Shown in pieces: positions 4,205-31,061 of a DNA stretch of 33,892 nucleotides (position 1 is its first letter; the number at the start of each line of letters is the position of its first letter). The DNA is from Acidobacteriota bacterium (GTDB lineage: Bacteria; Acidobacteriota; Terriglobia; Terriglobales; Acidobacteriaceae), in contig QIAU01000177.1 of assembly GCA_003225055.1 (NCBI GenBank), positions 24,177 to 58,068 of the forward strand, in the 5' to 3' direction. Both the position numbers and the translations under genes were made by a program. Below the pieces are notes generated by a model. The model did not search any database, was not told where the DNA came from, and saw only the letters and a program-made list of their open reading frames with translations.

Positions 4205-7084
4205 CTACCCGAGAGCCTGTTTGATCGCCGCTTGCAGTGTCTTGAATCCACCCGCCACGTTTTTGCCGACATGTACCCGCAGCACCCGGCGATTCCTCTC
4301 CGCTAGCACCTGGAAATCGCCTCGCGCCTGCGCAGCTTTGACCACTCCAAAGGTGTATTTCTGTCCCGGCACGGGCAAGTCGCTGGTATCGTCACAGGTC
4401 ACTTGCAGGAAGACACCCGAATTTGGTCCGCCCTTGTAAGCTTGTCCGGTGGAGTGCAGGAAGCGTGGTCCAAAGCCCAGACAGGTGGCAACATGCTTTT
4501 TGTCGCGCACGACATGGCGCACCTTCTGCAACTGTTCTTCGTCGAAGTCATTCCTCTCTACGTAGGCGAGCAGAGCGAAGTAGTCGCGCTCCCCGAGCCG
4601 ATTCAGATGCGCCCGCAAGTAACCCACAAGTGACCGGTCACCAGCCTTGGCCAGGGCATCAGTATTCTTGGAATCGGTAAAGAGCTTGATCCCGTTTTCT
4701 TCGAGGATTGGCTTCTCCGGGGGCAGAGAACCACGCTTCTCGTATTCGGCCGTCAGGTTTCGAGTCGCCACTTTGGAAGCTTCGACATCCGGCTGGTTGA
4801 ACGGGTTAATCCCGAGGATCGAGCCCGCCCCTGCCGTCGCAATTTCCCAGCGGAAGAATTCCTGGCCGAGGTCGTAAGCATCGCCCATCGAAATTCGAAC
4901 CACCGGGTGGCCGGCTTTCTCCAAAGCCGCAACCTTTTCATCCTGTGCGGGGTCCGGCCCAGTCTCGAGCCGGATGTAAGCAAAGATGCGGTCTTGGCCG
5001 TACCTCTCCGGAGATGTCAGCTCTTCGCGGTCGATGGGGATGATACCCTTGCCGTCCTTGCCGGTGGACTCGGCGATCAGTTGTTCCAGCCACGCACCCA
5101 AATCCGAAATCCCAGGCGAAGTGACAATCGTGAGCTTGTCGCGTCCGTTCCTGGCCGCGTTACCGAGAACGATTCCTAAAACCACGCCCGGATTTTGCTC
5201 CACCGGCACGCAGGAAGCACACGCCTCGACCATCTCCTCGGTTCGGTCCAGGAACTTCGCGGTGTCGACTCCCATGACGGCCGCCGGCACCATGCCGAAA
5301 TTGGAGAGCGCCGAATATCGTCCACCAATGCTGGGCACGCCGTAAAAGATGTTCCTGAAATGATCACCCTCGGCCACCTTCTCGAATTTCGACCCCGGAT
5401 CGGTAATCGCGATGAATCGGCTGCCTACTTCTTTCTCTCCCACCGCTGCTTTCACCCGCTCCCCAAAATACTGCTTGAAGATATTCGGTTCGAGTGTGCT
5501 GCCTGACTTGCTGGAAACAATGAACAGCGTTTTGGATAAATCGACCTTCTTTTCGAACGCCTTGACCTGAGCCGGGTCGGTCGAGTCCAGTACGTCGAGT
5601 GCGGGGAAGCCGGGTATTTTTCCGAAAGTAGTCGCCAATACTTCTGGGCAAAGACTCGATCCTCCCATTCCTAACAGCAACCCGTGAGTGAACCCCGCCT
5701 TTTTCACGTCTTCCGCAACCCGACCGAGCTCCTGGCTCTGGGCCATCTGGTCATCCGTTACCGCCAGCCAACCCAGCCAGGCTGCCTCGTCGGTGCCCGT
5801 CCACAAGGAGGCATCGCGCTGCCACAGCCGGCGCACTTTCCCGCCCGCGCGCCAGTCATCAATCCCGCTTTTTACCGCGGCACTCAATTCCTGCGGCAGC
5901 TGGTAGCTCTGCTGATTCACCTTGGGCGTGACTGCGCGCTTCGCGCTCTTCTCGACCGCTTCGAGCAGCTTGTCGAACGCGTCGGCAAATAGCTGTACGC
6001 CCTCGTCGGTGAGCTTGTCCGTAACCTGCATTATGGAGATTCCCGCCTTGGCCAGATCCTTCATGGTCTGCTTTGCCGCCTCGACATCTTCGGTCAGACT
6101 CTCCCGCAGCCGCCCATGATCGCGGAATGCGTCCAGGGTCGCGGGCGGGACGGTGTTCACGGTGTCTTTTCCAATCAACTCTTCGACGTACATGACGTCG
6201 CGATAGCTGGGATTCTTTGTGCTCGTGCTGGCCCAAAGTACGCGCTGGGTTTGTGCGCCTTGCGTAGCCAGAGCCTGCCAACGCGGGCCGCTGAAGATTC
6301 TGAGATACCGTTGATAGGTAAGCTTCCCGTTCGCGATAGCAACCTTGCCGAGCAAGCTTTTCAGCAACGCCTGCTGGTCGGGATCGGAAGTTTTCTTCAA
6401 CTTATCGTTGGCTAATGAATCGACCAGAGTGTCGATGCGGCTGATAAAGAAACTGGCCACGCTCGCCATCTTGCTGACATCCCCGCCTCGTGCGGCAAGC
6501 TGCTCCAGTCCGGCGAGGTAAGCCTCGGCCACCTTCTCGTAAACTTCCTGTGCGAACAGCAAAGTGACATTGATGTTGATGCCTTCGCTGATCAGTTGCT
6601 GAAAGGCGGGAATGCCTTCCGAGGTCCCGGGCACCTTGATCATGATGTTGGAACGTGCAACCGAGCTCCACAGGCGGCGCGCTTCTTCGATCGTGCCCCG
6701 GGTGTCGCGCGCCAGGTAAGGCGATACTTCCAGGCTGACATAGCCGTCGCGGCGCTTAGTGCCGTCGTACACCGGACGCAAGATGTCGGCGGCATCCTGG
6801 ATGTCACGAATGGCCAGCAACTCATAACGTGCTTTGGCATCCAGATCGGTGCGGGAATTCAGGGAGGCCAGGAAATCCGTGTAGTCGGTGCTTGCCGTAA
6901 TCGCCTTCTCAAAAATGGCAGGGTTCGAGGTCATCCCCTTTAAGCCATCATCTTCTATAAGGCGTTTCAATTCGCCGCTGGTAAACAGGTTCCGGCGGAT
7001 GTAGTCCAGCCACACCGACTGGGCGTACTTGTCGAGATCTTTGACTGGGTTGGTAGCCTTGGCAGTATCAAGAATTCCGGGCAT
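4205..7084 (-). CDS. tal-pgi: Bifunctional transaldolase / glucose-6-phosphate isomerase
   Basis: A 959-residue fusion. The N-terminal ~370 residues are transaldolase B-like, with [14 protein letters not shown] near 45-60 and the Schiff-base Lys in [11 protein letters not shown] near 149. The remainder is phosphoglucose isomerase: [10 protein letters not shown] near 471, SKSGSTLE near 524, and [14 protein letters not shown] near 875 with the catalytic Lys. It would link the non-oxidative pentose phosphate branch directly to glycolysis. The ATG at 7084 was chosen over an in-frame start at 7138 because GGAGAA lies 5 nt before it and the family N-terminus begins there. This start overlaps the 3' end of rpiB by 17 nt, suggesting translational coupling. 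Such fusions are known in several bacterial phyla. Confidence 0.94.
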
Positions 7085-7526
7085 ATCGTTTCTCCATGGC
7101 CTTAACTTTTTCAAGCCGGCGGCGATGCCGCTCTTCATTCGTAAAACTGGCTTCTATAAACGCGCGGACCAGCTCTTCCGCTAACGCATAAGCCACCACG
7201 CGCGCGCCTAGAACCAAAACATTCGTGTCATCGTGCTCGACACCCTGATGGGCGGAATAAGTGTCATGACACAAGCCGGCGCGGATGCCGACCATCTTGT
7301 TGGCAGCAACCGATGCCCCCACCCCGCTGCCGCAAATCAGAACTCCACGTTCAGCACGGCCGTCCAATATCGCTTTCCCGAGCGCCTCGGCGTAGTCCGG
7401 GTAGTCGACCGGTTCCGTGCTATCGGTGCCGATATCCAGAACCTCGTGTTTCCGTTCGCTCAAGTACGCCGCGATGTGCTTTTTGAGTTCGAATCCGGCG
7501 TGGTCCGACCCAATCACAATGCGCAT
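7068..7526 (-). CDS. rpiB: Ribose 5-phosphate isomerase B
   Basis: Interconverts ribose 5-phosphate and ribulose 5-phosphate. The 152-residue protein begins [15 protein letters not shown], the RpiB/LacAB hallmark with the substrate Asp-His pair. The catalytic Cys65 lies in ICGSGVGAS, and the conserved [19 protein letters not shown] segment follows at about 86-104. Length is typical. It starts 3 nt after the tkt stop codon and its 3' end overlaps tal-pgi by 17 nt, so it is firmly inside the operon. RpiB also can act on allose 6-phosphate in some bacteria, but the context argues for the pentose pathway. Confidence 0.96.
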
Positions 7527-20894: not shown

Positions 20895-21695
20895 GTGAGT
20901 AAGCCGAGGCGATCGCGCGAGTGGGATTCCGCTGCTTACGAGCGCGTCTCCGGACCCCAGTTCAGTTGGGGGAAGAAGGTAGTGGATCGCGTCTTGGCAC
21001 GCGGGGACGAGATCGTCCTGGATGCAGGGTGTGGTACCGGGAAGCTTACGGCCGAATTATTGGGGAAATTGCCGCGCGGCCGCGTGGTGGCCGTCGATCT
21101 CTCCGAAAATATGCTGCGAGCTGCAGGCGAGCAGTTGACTCCCAGATTCGGCGACCAAATCCTGCTGGTGGCCGCCGATCTCGAAGACTTGCCGTTTAAT
21201 CAATGCTTCGACGGCATCTTCAGCACGGCGGTCTTTCACTGGGTCCCGGATCACGACCGTCTTTTTCGGAATCTCTATCACTCCCTAAAACCCGGCGGAT
21301 GGCTCGTTGCCCAGTGTGGCGGCGGACCGAACTTGAATCGGCTATTGAAACGCGTCGCGTCTCTTTCGCGAACCTCCCCTTTCGCGCCCTACCTCGCCGA
21401 TTACAAGCACGCTTGGGTGTACTCGGATGCTGAAACGGCAGCCCAACAACTGCGGAGGGCAGGATTCGTGAATGTCGACACCAGCCTGGAGCCGACGCCA
21501 ACCTGCCTTGAAGACGCGCAACGGTATTGTGAATTCGTGAGCAAAGTGATTCTGCACCGTCACCTCGAACGTGTTCCCGATCCCAACCTCCAGCGCCAGT
21601 TTATCGAGGAATTATCCGGCCAAGCTCGAAAGGACGATCCCCCGTTCCAACTCGACTATTGGCGACTCAATCTTAACGGGCGCAGGCCAGCGTGA
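20895..21695 (+). CDS. SAM-dependent class I methyltransferase
   Basis: A 266-residue soluble methyltransferase. Motif I is VLDAGCGTGKLT (residues 41-52), followed by VVAVDLSENMLRAA and the motif II/III region VAADLEDLPF. FHWVPDHDRLFRNLYHSLKPGGWLVAQCGG is characteristic of Methyltransf_11 proteins close to trans-aconitate methyltransferase and BioC. The N-terminal WDSAAYERVSGPQFSWG also fits that subgroup, which acts on free carboxylates, but the substrate cannot be read from the sequence. It starts with GTG at 20895, preceded by an AGG-containing stretch; no in-frame ATG gives a full domain. It follows the lyase gene by 102 nt on the same strand. Confidence 0.8.
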   Translation: MSKPRRSREWDSAAYERVSGPQFSWGKKVVDRVLARGDEIVLDAGCGTGKLTAELLGKLPRGRVVAVDLSENMLRAAGEQLTPRFGDQILLVAADLEDLPFNQCFDGIFSTAVFHWVPDHDRLFRNLYHSLKPGGWLVAQCGGGPNLNRLLKRVASLSRTSPFAPYLADYKHAWVYSDAETAAQQLRRAGFVNVDTSLEPTPTCLEDAQRYCEFVSKVILHRHLERVPDPNLQRQFIEELSGQARKDDPPFQLDYWRLNLNGRRPA

Positions 21696-21871
21696 CACAT
21701 CTCGAGCCCGTGGAGTCTGTCTCCCTGACAGCAGAGCGCTTTGCGGCCACTCTGTTAAGCAAGTACGTAGCTTCATTGCTCCAATTTTCTTCCTGGGAAA
21801 CCCGAAACTTTCCCTAGATGTCTGTGTTCATACCGGCGTACGCGGTAGCTGACTGACCTAGGAGGGTAACC

Positions 21872-22399
21872 ATGCGACGAAGCCTTCTCGGCCTGGCTTT
21901 TCTGTTATTAGTCTCGGGGTGTGTTTTTGCGCAAAGCACGCCTCCTTCGAGCGACACCATTCAGGATCGGAAGGATCTCAGACAAGATGTACGAGACCGC
22001 AATCGCGATCAGCGCGACATCAACCGTGATCGCCGAGATCTGAACCAGGATCGGGCCGATCGCAATGCCGACCTGGGCGATGCACGCCGCGATCAGCGCG
22101 GCATTAACGCCGACCGCCGGGATTTGAACCGGGACCGTGCCGATCTGCGCCGCGACTTGAGCAATGGGGACAAAGCCGATGCCGCGAAGGACCGCCGCGA
22201 CATTCGCGCCGACCAGCGCGATATCAACCGCGATGTTCGTGACCGGAATGCCGATCGCAGAGACGCACGCAAAGACCAGCGCGACATTAACCATGACCGG
22301 CGCGACTTAAGCAAAGACCGGCGCGACCGCAATAAAGACAATCGTGACATCCGCGCCGATCGCCGCGACCTCCGCCGAGATCGCCGTCGGGCTCACTGA
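21872..22399 (+). CDS. Secreted DRRD-heptad repeat protein of unknown function
   Basis: A 175-residue protein with a signal sequence whose LLLVSGC is a possible lipobox (VSGC); cleavage after VFA is the alternative. From about residue 32 nearly the whole protein is a seven-residue repeat, consensus D-R-R-D-[ILR]-x-x: about nine units, a 12-residue spacer (DLSNGDKADAAK), then about ten more. Each unit has two Asp and two Arg in fixed places and at most one aliphatic residue, so a canonical leucine-type coiled coil is unlikely; a charge-paired single helix or polyampholyte is more plausible. A very strong SD (AGGAGGG, 5 nt before ATG) suggests high expression. Ends in a short Arg/His tail. I recognise no family. 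Confidence 0.75.
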   Translation: MRRSLLGLAFLLLVSGCVFAQSTPPSSDTIQDRKDLRQDVRDRNRDQRDINRDRRDLNQDRADRNADLGDARRDQRGINADRRDLNRDRADLRRDLSNGDKADAAKDRRDIRADQRDINRDVRDRNADRRDARKDQRDINHDRRDLSKDRRDRNKDNRDIRADRRDLRRDRRRAH

Positions 22400-22421
22400 T
22401 GCCCGACGTTCGGTTGTGAAA

Positions 22422-22443
22422 AGCGGCGGCAGCTCCCGCCGCT
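22422..22443 (+). terminator. Hairpin after the DRRD-repeat gene
   Basis: AGCGGCGG (22422-22429) and CCGCCGCT (22436-22443) form an 8-bp GC stem with a 6-nt loop, 22 nt after the stop codon of the repeat-protein gene. No U run follows, so it may be a processing/stability hairpin and not an intrinsic terminator. Confidence 0.45.
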
Positions 22444-22478
22444 GCGATCGGTGTGCCGATTGGTGAGTCAGGAATGTT

Positions 22479-22514
22479 GTGATCCTGAGAAGGGCTTATT
22501 CTTCGAAGGATCAC
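22479..22514. repeat. Intergenic palindromic repeat, copy 3
   Basis: GTGATCCT (22479-22486) pairs perfectly with AGGATCAC (22507-22514). An inner GAAG/CTTC pair extends the stem beyond a GA/GA mismatch. It lies between two convergent genes (DRRD-repeat protein and cutA), 17 nt from the cutA stop. The arms relate it to the repeats at 10615 and 19546. Confidence 0.65.
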
Positions 22515-22531
22515 GCGTGTGCCGCTCAAGT

Positions 22532-22852
22532 TCATGCTCGTACTGAATCGCTAATCCACGTCAGATAGTCAGCGCCGCCATCTTCGATCGAAAGCAACAG
22601 GCACTCCGGCAGTTCGTAGGAATGCAGTTCGCCTATCACCGTCCGAACCCGCCCGAACGCCGCTTCCGTGGTCTTGATCACCAGCATCCATTCCGGGGCA
22701 GTCTCAACCTTCTCCTTCCAGCGATAAACCGATTCCACCGAGGGCAGAATGTTGACGCACGCCGCCAGCCGCCGCTCCAATAAAGCGTGAGCGATCTTGC
22801 GGGCCTCCTCCTGAGATCCGGCAGTAGTGAGGACGATTTTCTGTTCGCTCAT
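22532..22852 (-). CDS. cutA: Divalent cation tolerance protein CutA
   Basis: A 106-residue protein matching CutA1, a trimeric ferredoxin-fold protein linked to copper tolerance and stress, with no proven enzymatic role. Signatures are VLTTAGSQEEARKIAHALLERRLAACVNILPSVES, then YRWKEKVE and ELHSYELPECLLLSIEDG. Length is typical. The start lies at 22852 with a weak upstream SD. It is a lone minus-strand gene, divergent from the phosphohexomutase. Confidence 0.95.
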   Translation of the reverse strand: MSEQKIVLTTAGSQEEARKIAHALLERRLAACVNILPSVESVYRWKEKVETAPEWMLVIKTTEAAFGRVRTVIGELHSYELPECLLLSIEDGGADYLTWISDSVRA

Positions 22853-28947: not shown

Positions 28948-29024
<77 letters not shown>

Positions 29025-29139
29025 ACCTTTTCAATCAGTTGCGCGGTTCGAGGGCTGACCGGCAAACCCCCAAAAACCCCCATTAACAAGAAAACGAGCC
29101 TTGAGAAAGGGGTCGCGTCGTGCACCGGGTTCTCGTTTC

Positions 29140-30333
29140 TCACCTAGCCGCGATGGCGGGCGCGACCTCTCGGGGAAGAGGAGCGCCTCTTAAAGCCATC
29201 TCGACCACTTTACTGTTTGCCTCACGCTTGCTTTTAAGCATCGCCTGCCCGTACACGTTCATCGTGGTCTGAATGCTGGCGTGCCGCATGAGCTCCTGTT
29301 GCACCTTCATGGGTGCACCGGTTTCGTCCAACCACGAACGATACGAATGACGAAACGTGTGCCACCCGATTTCCGCACCGAGGCCGGCTTTCTTCCCGGC
29401 CTCGCGCAGGTGAGCCTTCTGGATATGTTCCTGGTAGTACGGCTTTCCCGTTATTGGGCTGCCGAACACCCAGTCGGTATCGCCTCGAAAGGGCGCCCGC
29501 TCTCGCCATTCGAGCAGAATGTGAGCCAGATCGGGATGCAGCGGCACCTCATCGCGCGAGTACTCGGTCTTCACCTCGTCGACGCGCGCTTTGACCGCAC
29601 TCCTCTCGACCAGCAGTGTCAGCCTTTCGAAATCGAAATCACTCCATCGCAGTGCGACGATCTCGCTCACGCGCAAACCGAGGCATTGTGCGGTGATCAC
29701 CATCGTTCGATAAGGCTCTCGGAGAAACGGCAGAAGTTTGTAAAATTCCTCTACCGTCAACACGCGAGGCCGCTTCAGCCGTTTGGTACAGTTCTTCACC
29801 CGAACCAAGGCGATTGGGTTTCTGCCAGTCTCCATCAGCTCCCATCGTTCCGCACAGCGGAACAGAAGGTGCATGAGGCTTCGGATGTGCGCCTTCGTTT
29901 TGGGTGCCAGGTCAAGCTGTTTCAGCCAATCTTCCGCAACCATCGCTTTCACCCGATCCAAAGGGATATCGCCCCACTTCGGTTTGATGTGCCGGTTGAG
30001 AAGTGAAAGATACGACACCCGCGTGGAATATCGTTCCGGCAATTCCTCTTGGATGTACCGATCCATCAGCGTTCCCAACGTCAGCCCCACCAATGCCCTT
30101 TGTGGAGCGTCAGAGTTAATTTTCAAAAGAAGAGCCTGCACGGCCTTTCGCGCAGCAGCTGCGGTTGGATACTGGCTCGCTCTTCCCACCGTGATATAGC
30201 GGCGAATCCGCTTGCCGCCGGTATCCTCATAAAATCGGAACTCCCACGCATCGGGTCCGTTGGCCCTCTTCTTCGTTCGCAAACTACCAAACTGGAATCG
30301 TGCTCGCTTAAACAAAAGGTACGCTCCTTTCAT
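29140..30333 (-). CDS. Tyrosine recombinase / integrase
   Basis: A 397-residue phage-type integrase. The N-terminal ~70 residues form the arm-binding region (DUF4102-like, with RRYITVGRASQYPTAAAARK). Residues ~85-180 are the SAM-like core-binding domain. The catalytic domain has Arg221 (CLGLRVSEIVALRWSDFD), a Lys in the beta-hairpin near 255, His325 and Arg328 (HTFRHSYRSWL), His351 (RHASIQTTMNVYG) and nucleophile Tyr361. All are present, so it may be active. Its 3' end faces tRNA-fMet, and it begins directly after the stop of an AlpA/Xis-like gene (TAAATG). The neighbourhood fits a genomic island or prophage remnant. Which tRNA it targets is unproven. Confidence 0.93.
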   Translation of the reverse strand: MKGAYLLFKRARFQFGSLRTKKRANGPDAWEFRFYEDTGGKRIRRYITVGRASQYPTAAAARKAVQALLLKINSDAPQRALVGLTLGTLMDRYIQEELPERYSTRVSYLSLLNRHIKPKWGDIPLDRVKAMVAEDWLKQLDLAPKTKAHIRSLMHLLFRCAERWELMETGRNPIALVRVKNCTKRLKRPRVLTVEEFYKLLPFLREPYRTMVITAQCLGLRVSEIVALRWSDFDFERLTLLVERSAVKARVDEVKTEYSRDEVPLHPDLAHILLEWRERAPFRGDTDWVFGSPITGKPYYQEHIQKAHLREAGKKAGLGAEIGWHTFRHSYRSWLDETGAPMKVQQELMRHASIQTTMNVYGQAMLKSKREANSKVVEMALRGAPLPREVAPAIAAR

Positions 30334-30588
30334 TTAGCGGCACGAGTGGCAAACTGAATGTACCGAAGTACGGAGCCACTCGTCCAGTTCTGAAATCCGA
30401 AATCGCCAAAGGGTGCCGATGCGATGCGCGGGTACACGTCCATCCCGCGCCATCTTCTGCAGCGTTTTCGGATGAACACCCAGAAATGCAGCGGCCTGAT
30501 CGCTATCACACAAAGGATCAAAGTGGCCGAAACAATTCGCGCGTGGCGCTTGAGAGTTCTGTGCGACTGGATGCCGATCGATGCCCAT
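30334..30588 (-). CDS. AlpA/excisionase-family helix-turn-helix protein
   Basis: An 84-residue protein with the HTH_17/excisionase pattern LCDSDQAAAFLGVHPKTLQKMARDGRVPAHRIGTLWRFRISELDEWLRT. Such proteins bind att or promoter DNA and direct excision or control integrase expression. ATG at 30588 was chosen because GGAG lies 7 nt upstream; the frame continues open to 30807 without homology. Its stop codon abuts the integrase start, so the two are one operon. The N-terminal 25 residues are unremarkable. Confidence 0.85.
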   Translation of the reverse strand: MGIDRHPVAQNSQAPRANCFGHFDPLCDSDQAAAFLGVHPKTLQKMARDGRVPAHRIGTLWRFRISELDEWLRTSVHSVCHSCR

Positions 30589-30738
30589 TTCTTTTCTCCG
30601 ATTTCTTCCAATACTCAAGTGGGTAATCCGGTTCGTCGTTACCGAACGGACGCAATGGCAATGGAATGGGTCACAAGGGCTATGGGGAAATGGGTTAAGG
30701 GAATGGAGTCCGCACTGTGAATCGCGAAGGGAGACGGC

Positions 30739-30768
30739 GGACGCGGCGGCCTGCTGGCCGCCGCGTCC
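30739..30768. repeat. 13-bp perfect GC palindrome
   Basis: GGACGCGGCGGCC (30739-30751) and GGCCGCCGCGTCC (30756-30768) form a perfect 13-bp stem with a TGCT loop. It lies between the Xis-like gene and the truncated winged-helix ORF. No U run follows on either strand, so it may be a terminator-like block or a protein/recombination site. Confidence 0.75.
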
Positions 30769-30803
30769 TGGGCGGTTGCCGTCGGGTTTGCTGTTGTTCG
30801 GTT

Positions 30804-31061
30804 TCATTCTGTTTGCTTTAGGAATTCGCGGAAGAGCGGATGGTAGAGCTTGTATCGTCCTCGTCCAGTTCGGATGAGCAGACCTTTTTCAGCCAGGCGT
30901 GCGAAATATTCCGTTTGGAACTTCCCGGTGAAGTGGTGAGTTGCAAGTTCGCCTGCGCCCAGGTTGGCGAATTGATGGATGAGTTCGAGTTCCTTCCCGC
31001 TGAGCTGGGCCACATCGGAGCGGAATTGGCAGAGCTGAAAAGGCTGGCGTCGGCGGTTCAA
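30804..31061 (-). pseudogene. Truncated winged-helix C-terminal fragment fused to tRNA-derived sequence
   Basis: An 85-residue frame. From about residue 20 it reads like a winged-helix C-terminus of a larger ATPase or regulator (LSGKELELIHQFANLGAGELATHHFTGKF, FARLAEKGLLIRTGRGRYKLYHPLFREFLK). The first residues are encoded by the antisense of the tRNA-Phe-like fragment at 31035-31079, so the real N-terminal part was lost at that junction. No SD is clear. It is best seen as a broken gene left by an integration or deletion event. The parent family is not certain. Confidence 0.55.

Follow-up and report, generated by a model that had tools for sequence, protein, structure and literature searches.

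The stretch of DNA analyzed here, 33,892 nucleotides long and called the window, carries on its plus strand a gene (21872 to 22399) for an exported protein of the charged-hairpin type. Our preferred reading is that this protein is an envelope-stress-induced polyampholyte hairpin of the periplasm, probably acting as a charge-based protectant or chaperone, and we put the chances of that reading as a whole at about even. The coding sequence, the export signal, the family, a turn flanked by matched arms, and a promoter box shared with the gene for a sigma factor are the computed parts of this reading.

The gene begins with ATG, has 175 codons, and stands as a single gene with its own promoter box. 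Its product starts with a signal peptide, after which come about 19 DRRDLNK-type heptads in two blocks spanning residues 28 to 94 and 107 to 172. A Shine-Dalgarno sequence, AGGAGGG, precedes it at 21860 to 21866 on the same strand; its AGGAGG (21860 to 21865) bears out the strong ribosome-binding site claimed in the preliminary description, and a purine-rich sequence of similar kind was seen by eye before many family members. The claim of some 19 DRRD-type units in two blocks was confirmed as well. Specifically, Asp recurs in the window protein at a lag of seven residues 35 times versus 9.7 expected (z = 10.9), and none of 2,000 shuffles reached 35. Among 621 units from across the family, selected for D/E at positions 1 and 4 and, where another unit follows, at its first position as well, Asp makes up 96% of position 1 and 86% of position 4, R/K makes up 69% of position 2 and 75% of position 3, and position 5 is L/I/V in 76%. 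The mature window protein is 59% charged with a net charge of +0.07 per residue, which agrees with the polyampholyte first proposed. A strict alternation of acidic and basic residues, proposed at the same time, was not borne out. Because positions 1 and 4 form a single stripe along a helix, Asp would face one way and Arg/Lys mostly the others.

The family is so far known only from the Acidobacteriota, as judged by similarity and profile searches inside that phylum and by exact patterns beyond it. Exact peptide patterns run across all genome contigs returned 17 loci, 16 in Acidobacteriota MAGs and one in a Planctomycete. The 16 Acidobacteriota loci read as relatives, including two fragments (L015 and L017). 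The Planctomycete locus (L016) was rejected as a member, since it reads as a different repeat, DQRGVNA; this heptad repeat (L016:639-959) overlaps a SecDF-like ORF in another frame and is probably unrelated. At E 1e-5, 23 of 100 relatives gave a match, with the source genome included and one match made through two pieces of one gene, while the single same-genus genome searched (G001) gave none. A profile search of 396 genomes of the phylum matched 24 at E 1e-6; 17 of these were accepted by eye, with L069 and L074 as doubtful forms among them. Distribution within the phylum is patchy. Our working set comprised 47 members, of which the near-identical L003 and L004 were both retained. It was reached after dropping duplicates (L020, L021, L024, L039, L041, and L065), the two fragments, one locus with an ambiguous start (L068), second pieces of loci already counted (L089 to L091), and nonmembers (L016, L072, L073, L076, L084 to L088, L092, and L093).

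Comparison with databases placed the family close to nothing that has been characterized. The window protein and 10 further members had no match above the cut-offs of Pfam and NCBIfam, and the window protein had none of note among PDB sequences and none on plasmids. The best PHROGs match was weak (phrog_20590, E 0.0019), the best NCBIfam match was that of member L081 to NF033175 (E 0.00048, 20 bits versus a cut-off of 55), and matches of the SMC, OmpH, DUF1090, FapA, and T2SSF types were weak and fell short of whatever cut-off applied. A search by title and start of abstract, in a literature mostly outside subscription journals, returned no paper on the family. The statement that no known family fits therefore stands, given that none of Pfam, NCBIfam, PHROGs, or PDB holds a credible match. 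We regard the family as new and unnamed and its construction as new, serving what may be a known kind of role, that of a stress-induced periplasmic protein.

The window ORF is a real coding gene, and it is under constraint. Differences between homologues concentrate at third codon positions (14 pairs), and dN/dS was 0.07 to 0.23 in 11 of the 14 pairs; dS was not computable in the other three and exceeded 1 in five of the 11. These ratios support coding; evidence against translation had been named in the preliminary description as a ground for refuting it. They also bear on the view that the ORF arose by chance or that a hydrophobic ORF antisense to it (21908 to 22294), whose 128-amino-acid frame is open, is the true gene. 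Third-position substitutions in the sense frame and its low dN/dS refute the antisense gene, and the Shine-Dalgarno sequence, the promoter box, and the signal peptide all fit the sense strand, so that the view as a whole is vanishingly improbable. Because dN/dS is low in the sense frame, the open antisense frame is best seen as a by-product. The repeat itself looks old and kept by selection, because its units differ in codons and none are identical in DNA: among the 18 units of the window gene, 0 of 153 pairs of 21-mers were identical, and 55% of the identical amino-acid pairs between units use different codons. A recent tandem repeat of DNA was rejected on the same grounds, and TRF gave short partial arrays only.

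The signal peptide covers approximately residues 1 to 21 (21934 being its last nucleotide, from 21872), with a cleavage predicted by motif at VFA|QS or VFAQ|S, which is of the signal peptidase I type. A signal-peptidase-I-like x-[AG]-[QKE] site is present in 41 of the 47 members and the strict form [AV]x[AG]Q in 31, which supports the export originally claimed. The possible lipobox that was claimed with it fared less well. Were the family one of surface lipoproteins, as the VSGC at residues 14 to 17 of the window protein, its 14.9 bits with Pfam LPAM_1, and an LLAC in L036 might suggest, a lipobox with Cys at +1 should be common; such a motif occurs in 2 of 47 members, namely these two, and the LPAM_1 score lies under the cut-off of 20. 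The family was accordingly not classed as lipoproteins, even though the window protein is one of the two carriers, and we find this alternative very improbable. A lipid on the window protein itself, as the carrier of VSGC, remains conceivable.

Structure prediction folds the mature protein into two helices of similar length. For the window protein, AlphaFold drew a helix over residues 26 to 97 (the N-arm, 21947 to 22162, about 9.5 heptads), a break at residues 98 to 100 (the turn NGD, 22163 to 22171, within the conserved hinge LRRDLSNGDKADAAKDRRDI), and a second helix over residues 101 to 174 (the C-arm, 22172 to 22393, again about 9.5 heptads), with a mean pLDDT of 83.0 and a pTM of 0.45. Member L001, which has the other hinge subtype, was predicted with helices at 35 to 124 and 129 to 213 (pLDDT 80.6, pTM 0.55). 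Charged repeats are readily drawn as long helices, and pTM reached only 0.45 to 0.55, so the helicity that was first proposed is upheld as a prediction. Foldseek gave 0 matches at E 0.001, and VIA-align gave Z scores of up to 9.8 over 64 residues to generic helical arrangements.

Between the two blocks, a 12-residue spacer had been noticed. The spacer is present, but it is not a mere interruption: it is a conserved turn that recurs in the family. Much of the family shares a hinge of approximately the form [LIM]xxD[LIR][KR]xG[DN]xxADAxK[DE]RxDI, and the group-2 lineage has the form [FY]GANSxQxxADRKDL. We located hinges by the change in phase of the Asp register, a procedure that uses no midpoint information. 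With a log-likelihood gain of at least 20, a hinge was detected in 34 members, with a shift of +5 in 22, +6 in 10, and +4 in 2. In the window protein, the change falls at about residue 97 (shift +5) and is independent of the AlphaFold break. Phase-neutral hinges, which give no phase fit, occur in L002, L003, L004, L006, L007, L009, L012, and L013. Nine hinges of the group-2 type were placed by motif, for a total of 43 of 47 locatable; L002, L067, L070, and L074 have no clear hinge, L002 carrying a YGANS motif that lies outside the pattern used.

The arms on either side of the hinge tend to stay equal while total length varies. Across the 43 members, the mean difference between N- and C-arm was 5.5 residues, versus 21.8 in 20,000 permutations (minimum 13.5), a statistic in which the members share ancestry and are not independent points. 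For the 34 hinges detected by phase alone, the mean difference was 7.0 versus 19.3 permuted (minimum 11.9), with a Spearman correlation of 0.87; the arms agree to within one heptad in 23 of the 34 and differ by more in 11. Among the largest differences are those of L029, L031, L030, L071, and L034. In L029 the phase method took an earlier break, and the SGDTDD turn would give 85/85. An antiparallel helical hairpin is thus what the predictions for two members and the match in arm length both describe, and for the hairpin taken alone we consider the model likely to be right. Member L040 (L040:1345-1728) has Cys 75 and Cys 83, one on either side of the turn, as if placed where a disulphide staple would need them. 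The degenerate L069 (same place as L039) has the FGA[SN]S hinge twice, at residues 64 and 126, and is possibly a three-arm form.

Variation in length also bears on a structural role, in which the protein would bridge the outer membrane, peptidoglycan, or exopolysaccharide as a spacer or polymer binder with its length set by the number of heptads, as is the case for Lpp. Alignment indels are mostly multiples of seven (by eye), length varies with the arms kept alike, the predicted shape is rod-like (arms of 70 residues would measure about 10 nm, taking 0.15 nm per residue), 31 of the 47 members end in K/R/H, and G-[KHR] occurs within the last four residues of 19 of the 47. Yet the two arms together span anywhere from 52 to 197 residues, a nearly fourfold range that is unlike a fixed spacer. 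Moreover, 45 of 47 members have no lipobox, the C-terminal Lys is not conserved across members, and the window protein and 10 others have no peptidoglycan-binding domain. We therefore rate a spacer as unlikely.

The same turn and matched arms suggest a defined fold, which weighs against a disordered protectant of the hydrophilin or LEA kind that serves in desiccation or osmotic stress and turns helical only on drying. A high fraction of charged residues (0.37 to 0.72 across members), few aromatics in most of them, and the apparent origin of several hosts as soil MAGs would suit such a protein. Group 3 LEA proteins have an 11-residue repeat, however, and the window protein has a period of 7 (z = 10.9 versus 3.2 at lag 11); assignment to group 3 LEA was rejected for this reason. 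Its Gly content (3 of 154 mature residues) is below the hydrophilin limit of 6%. A protectant of this kind seems quite unlikely.

Charge order offers a further clue to how the helices may be used. In an electrostatic model that is coarse (averaged charges over the 621 units, ideal helices, one dielectric), the natural heptad comes 686th among 720 orders for interactions within a helix, 53rd for antiparallel pairing, and, about as well, 64th for parallel pairing. The direction of this result is clear in the model: the order suits a partnered helix and not a lone one, and the matched arms suggest that the partner is the other arm. Helical hairpin and charge pairing are in this sense both model predictions. 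The charge-zipper idea of the preliminary description survives as a zipper between two arms, but not as a lone charge-stabilized helix, given that rank and the over-representation of D-D pairs at i+3 and i+4 in the window protein. Single alpha-helices of the ER/K type are likewise long charged helix-forming repeats, but they place opposite charges at i and i+4 where this family has like charges at i+3 and i+4; the type was rejected. A canonical coiled coil was rejected too, since position 5 is the only mainly aliphatic one and one pair of positions with 3-4 spacing is D/E. The near-neutral net charge (median +0.057 per residue over 47 members) weakens the suggestion that the protein binds polyanions.

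Alternatively, the Asp stripe might gather periplasmic Mg, Ca, Fe, Al, or polyamines, with the protein folding on binding as SilE folds on binding silver. Electrostatically, such a stripe is disfavored in an isolated helix and would call for counter-ions; many units contain D-x-N-x-D, and some members are His-rich (0 to 19 His per mature protein). The family gene in the window also adjoins a gene for CutA, a divalent-cation-tolerance family. Against sequestering of cations, Glu partly or mostly replaces Asp in some distant members (D/(D+E) falls to 0.33), a substitution that speaks against a strict Asp-Asn-Asp calcium site. Most of the Asp pairs have two Arg/Lys between them, just 2 of 47 mature proteins contain Cys, and CutA lies on the other strand and accompanies the family gene at 3 of the 30 phosphoglucomutase loci surveyed below. 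Such a function has, in our judgment, a low probability.

Our analysis of the upstream region points to an extracytoplasmic function (ECF) sigma factor. At 21802 to 21831 on the plus strand, matrix and homologue alignment identify an ECF-sigma-type box with the -35 element GAAACTT (21804 to 21810), the -10 element GTGTTC (21824 to 21829), and the core AAC-N17-GTT; there was no match to a sigma-70 promoter in 21690 to 22540. Upstream alignments of both lineages, one of which includes L047 and L049 in shortened form among nine sequences, mostly have GAAACTTT or GCAACTTT, N12, and G[GT]GTT. In the source genome (7.4 Mb) there are six box sites versus three for a reversed control. One is that of the window gene, and another precedes an ECF sigma gene with Pfam Sigma70_r2/r4 (Sigma70_r2 at 1.1e-19). 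The best PDB relatives of this sigma are the "sigma-H factor" 6in7 (4.5e-28), which we take to be AlgU, along with SigW and RpoE. Its gene is followed by one for a protein that has an HLLSCASC motif (HxxxCxxC) and no Pfam match, a putative membrane zinc anti-sigma-like protein, and then by one for a DUF3106 protein.

The box before the sigma gene recurs across genomes. We searched 11 of the 23 member-bearing genomes for the sigma and recovered an orthologue in 10. All 10 have GCAACTTT-N12-GGGTT, lying some 50 to 160 nt ahead of the region matched, and chance can hardly explain one ten-base match repeated in ten of ten sigma upstreams. A matrix made from these 10 sigma-gene boxes alone scores 11.2 at the window gene (p = 0.010 versus 300 shuffles of its own upstream). 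With this matrix, 29 of 47 family genes have an upstream score of at least 10, in every case at -94 to -52, versus 11 of 562 other upstreams, 5 of them at -105 to -50 (Fisher p = 2e-28 for 29/47 versus 11/562, with relatedness ignored); the sigma boxes were first noticed by their likeness to the family box, and the two sets are not wholly independent. Keeping one of eight close group-2 relatives left 23 of 40 family genes at that score. The 562 controls contain three doubled loci (L005/L044, L011/L043, and L014/L063) as well as a single family box that precedes a mis-called ORF in L056. By shuffling, 37 of 47 family upstreams reach p ≤ 0.05; the 10 with no significant box (L031, L067, L069, L070, L074, L075, L078, L080, L082, and L083) are mostly the most distant members.

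Genome-wide counts are uneven. A stricter pattern gave 15 rows in 12 genomes versus 4 for the reversed control, and nine of the 15 precede the sigma gene (six, one site twice) or a family gene (three). With the looser pattern, the excess over control was clear in G010 (11 versus 2) and G015 (13 versus 4), and there was little or none in G006 (6 versus 5), G029 (5 versus 4), G051 (2 versus 4), and G078 (2 versus 1). What marks the family as a probable target is a shared box at a near-fixed distance from the start. ECF control of the family gene appears very likely. Because the sigma query gave 33 first-look candidates in the source genome, the regulator could instead be a different ECF sigma that shares this -35. 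PMC8103513 gives AAC at -35, a co-transcribed anti-sigma, and autoregulation as hallmarks of ECF sigmas. RpoE/AlgU/SigW-type regulons resemble the present case in the -35 AAC, a sigma gene with its own box, an anti-sigma-like gene next to it, and several exported targets. They differ in their targets, which are other proteins here, and in the -10, which is [GT]GTT here versus the textbook CGT (PMC8103513).

Other genes behind such boxes, each seen in one or two genomes, are candidate targets, and several pattern matches in coding or ambiguous places are likely due to chance. FecR/DUF6600 exported proteins occur behind it in two genomes of different families (L146 and L147), and DUF1800 protein genes start behind it in two genomes (L129:1563-3023 and L148:2-1489). 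Two genomes encode tiny exported proteins whose C-terminus is almost only His/Arg (L165:1253-1456 and L178:1565-1750); these have no Pfam match, and the box lies 63 to 70 nt before them. Further exported proteins are found in L156, L170, and L177. The gene in L144 reads as a dehydrogenase and looks cytosolic, and L154 and L173:1148-1375 hold the same small, apparently cytosolic protein (76 to 81 amino acids) in two genomes, with the box about 150 nt before.

The family gene has no fixed companions. In the window, by ORF readings, it lies between a methyltransferase gene and CutA on the opposite strand, followed by phosphoglucomutase. There was no conserved same-strand operon partner across lineages, and an operon partner by association was rejected because neighbors vary. 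Since the nearest neighbors differ between lineages, we take CutA and phosphoglucomutase as positional. We surveyed the best 30 phosphoglucomutase loci among 59 genomes, the source genome included. The family gene is present at 4 of the 30, and CutA (by motif) occurs without it at 11. Of the 26 genomes without the family gene at this locus, 7 carry a member at another place. Occupancy of the locus varies, and therefore the gene comes and goes or moves; the promoter box accompanies it in differing neighborhoods and tends to travel with it. Elsewhere in the window, a tRNA gene (28948 to 29021), the only match to Rfam-type RNA families, is followed by a 397-amino-acid ORF like a tyrosine-type site-specific integrase (29140 to 30333) and a small helix-turn-helix-like ORF (30334 to 30807); the region from 28948 to 30807 is likely an integrated element. 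At 4205 to 7138, a 977-amino-acid ORF reads as a transaldolase fused to glucose-6-phosphate isomerase.

In the account that we favor, the regulator would most likely be an RpoE/AlgU-like ECF sigma that envelope stress sets free, and the operon of this sigma, its putative anti-sigma, and the DUF3106 protein would carry the box common to the family gene. Given the strong Shine-Dalgarno sequence, the product of the gene could then fill the periplasm as a rod-shaped protein that is dense in charge yet close to neutral overall. This exported, soluble (periplasmic or secreted) product would form one long antiparallel alpha-hairpin with helices of about 70 residues and an NGD turn, and pairing across the arms between the Asp stripe and the Arg/Lys faces would stand in for a hydrophobic core. 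By swapping salt bridges, the hairpin may bind charged segments exposed in unfolding envelope proteins, or membrane surfaces, and such binding would prevent aggregation of clients, much as reported for Asr (PMC10746267). It is the particular sigma, the induction by stress, the abundance, and the action as chaperone or protectant that we infer here.

Known systems offer partial parallels. In the periplasm, Skp/OmpH grips unfolded outer-membrane proteins with its antiparallel helical arms, an architecture resembling that predicted for the family, but L077 alone gave a hit to its profile, a weak one (PF03938, E 0.029, 15 bits versus a cut-off of 32.4), and nine other members and the window protein had no match. 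Chaperones of the Spy/CpxP (LTXXQ) group are helical, small, envelope-stress-induced, and bind clients by charge; the family is likened to them on predicted and inferred properties, and it differs in having about one aliphatic residue per heptad and, for the window protein and 10 members, no LTXXQ match in Pfam. Asr of Escherichia coli is small and charged. It is described as an intrinsically disordered periplasmic chaperone that supports outer-membrane integrity (PMC10746267). By this description it resembles the family as an exported stress protein, and its disorder and induction by acid contrast with the strict heptads, turn, matched arms, and ECF box found here.

We also entertain, as a tentative and rather doubtful extension, that the family is a new kind of core-less protein, a charge-zipper hairpin with arms that co-evolve in length one heptad at a time, serving as an electrostatic switch. 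It would stay zipped at rest and be opened by a change in pH or ionic strength, exposing its stripes to clients or membrane, and would be supplied on demand through a phylum-wide ECF envelope-stress regulon. Arms of matched length with hardly any hydrophobic core would offer a natural test of charge pairing as the sole force that keeps a hairpin together, a point of interest for protein design. More generally, a strange repeat becomes testable as a family for which a defined fold is predicted, a regulator is inferred, and partner genes are put forward as candidates. The Acidobacteriota are a major soil phylum with little genetics, and the shared box sketches candidate targets of their envelope-stress response.
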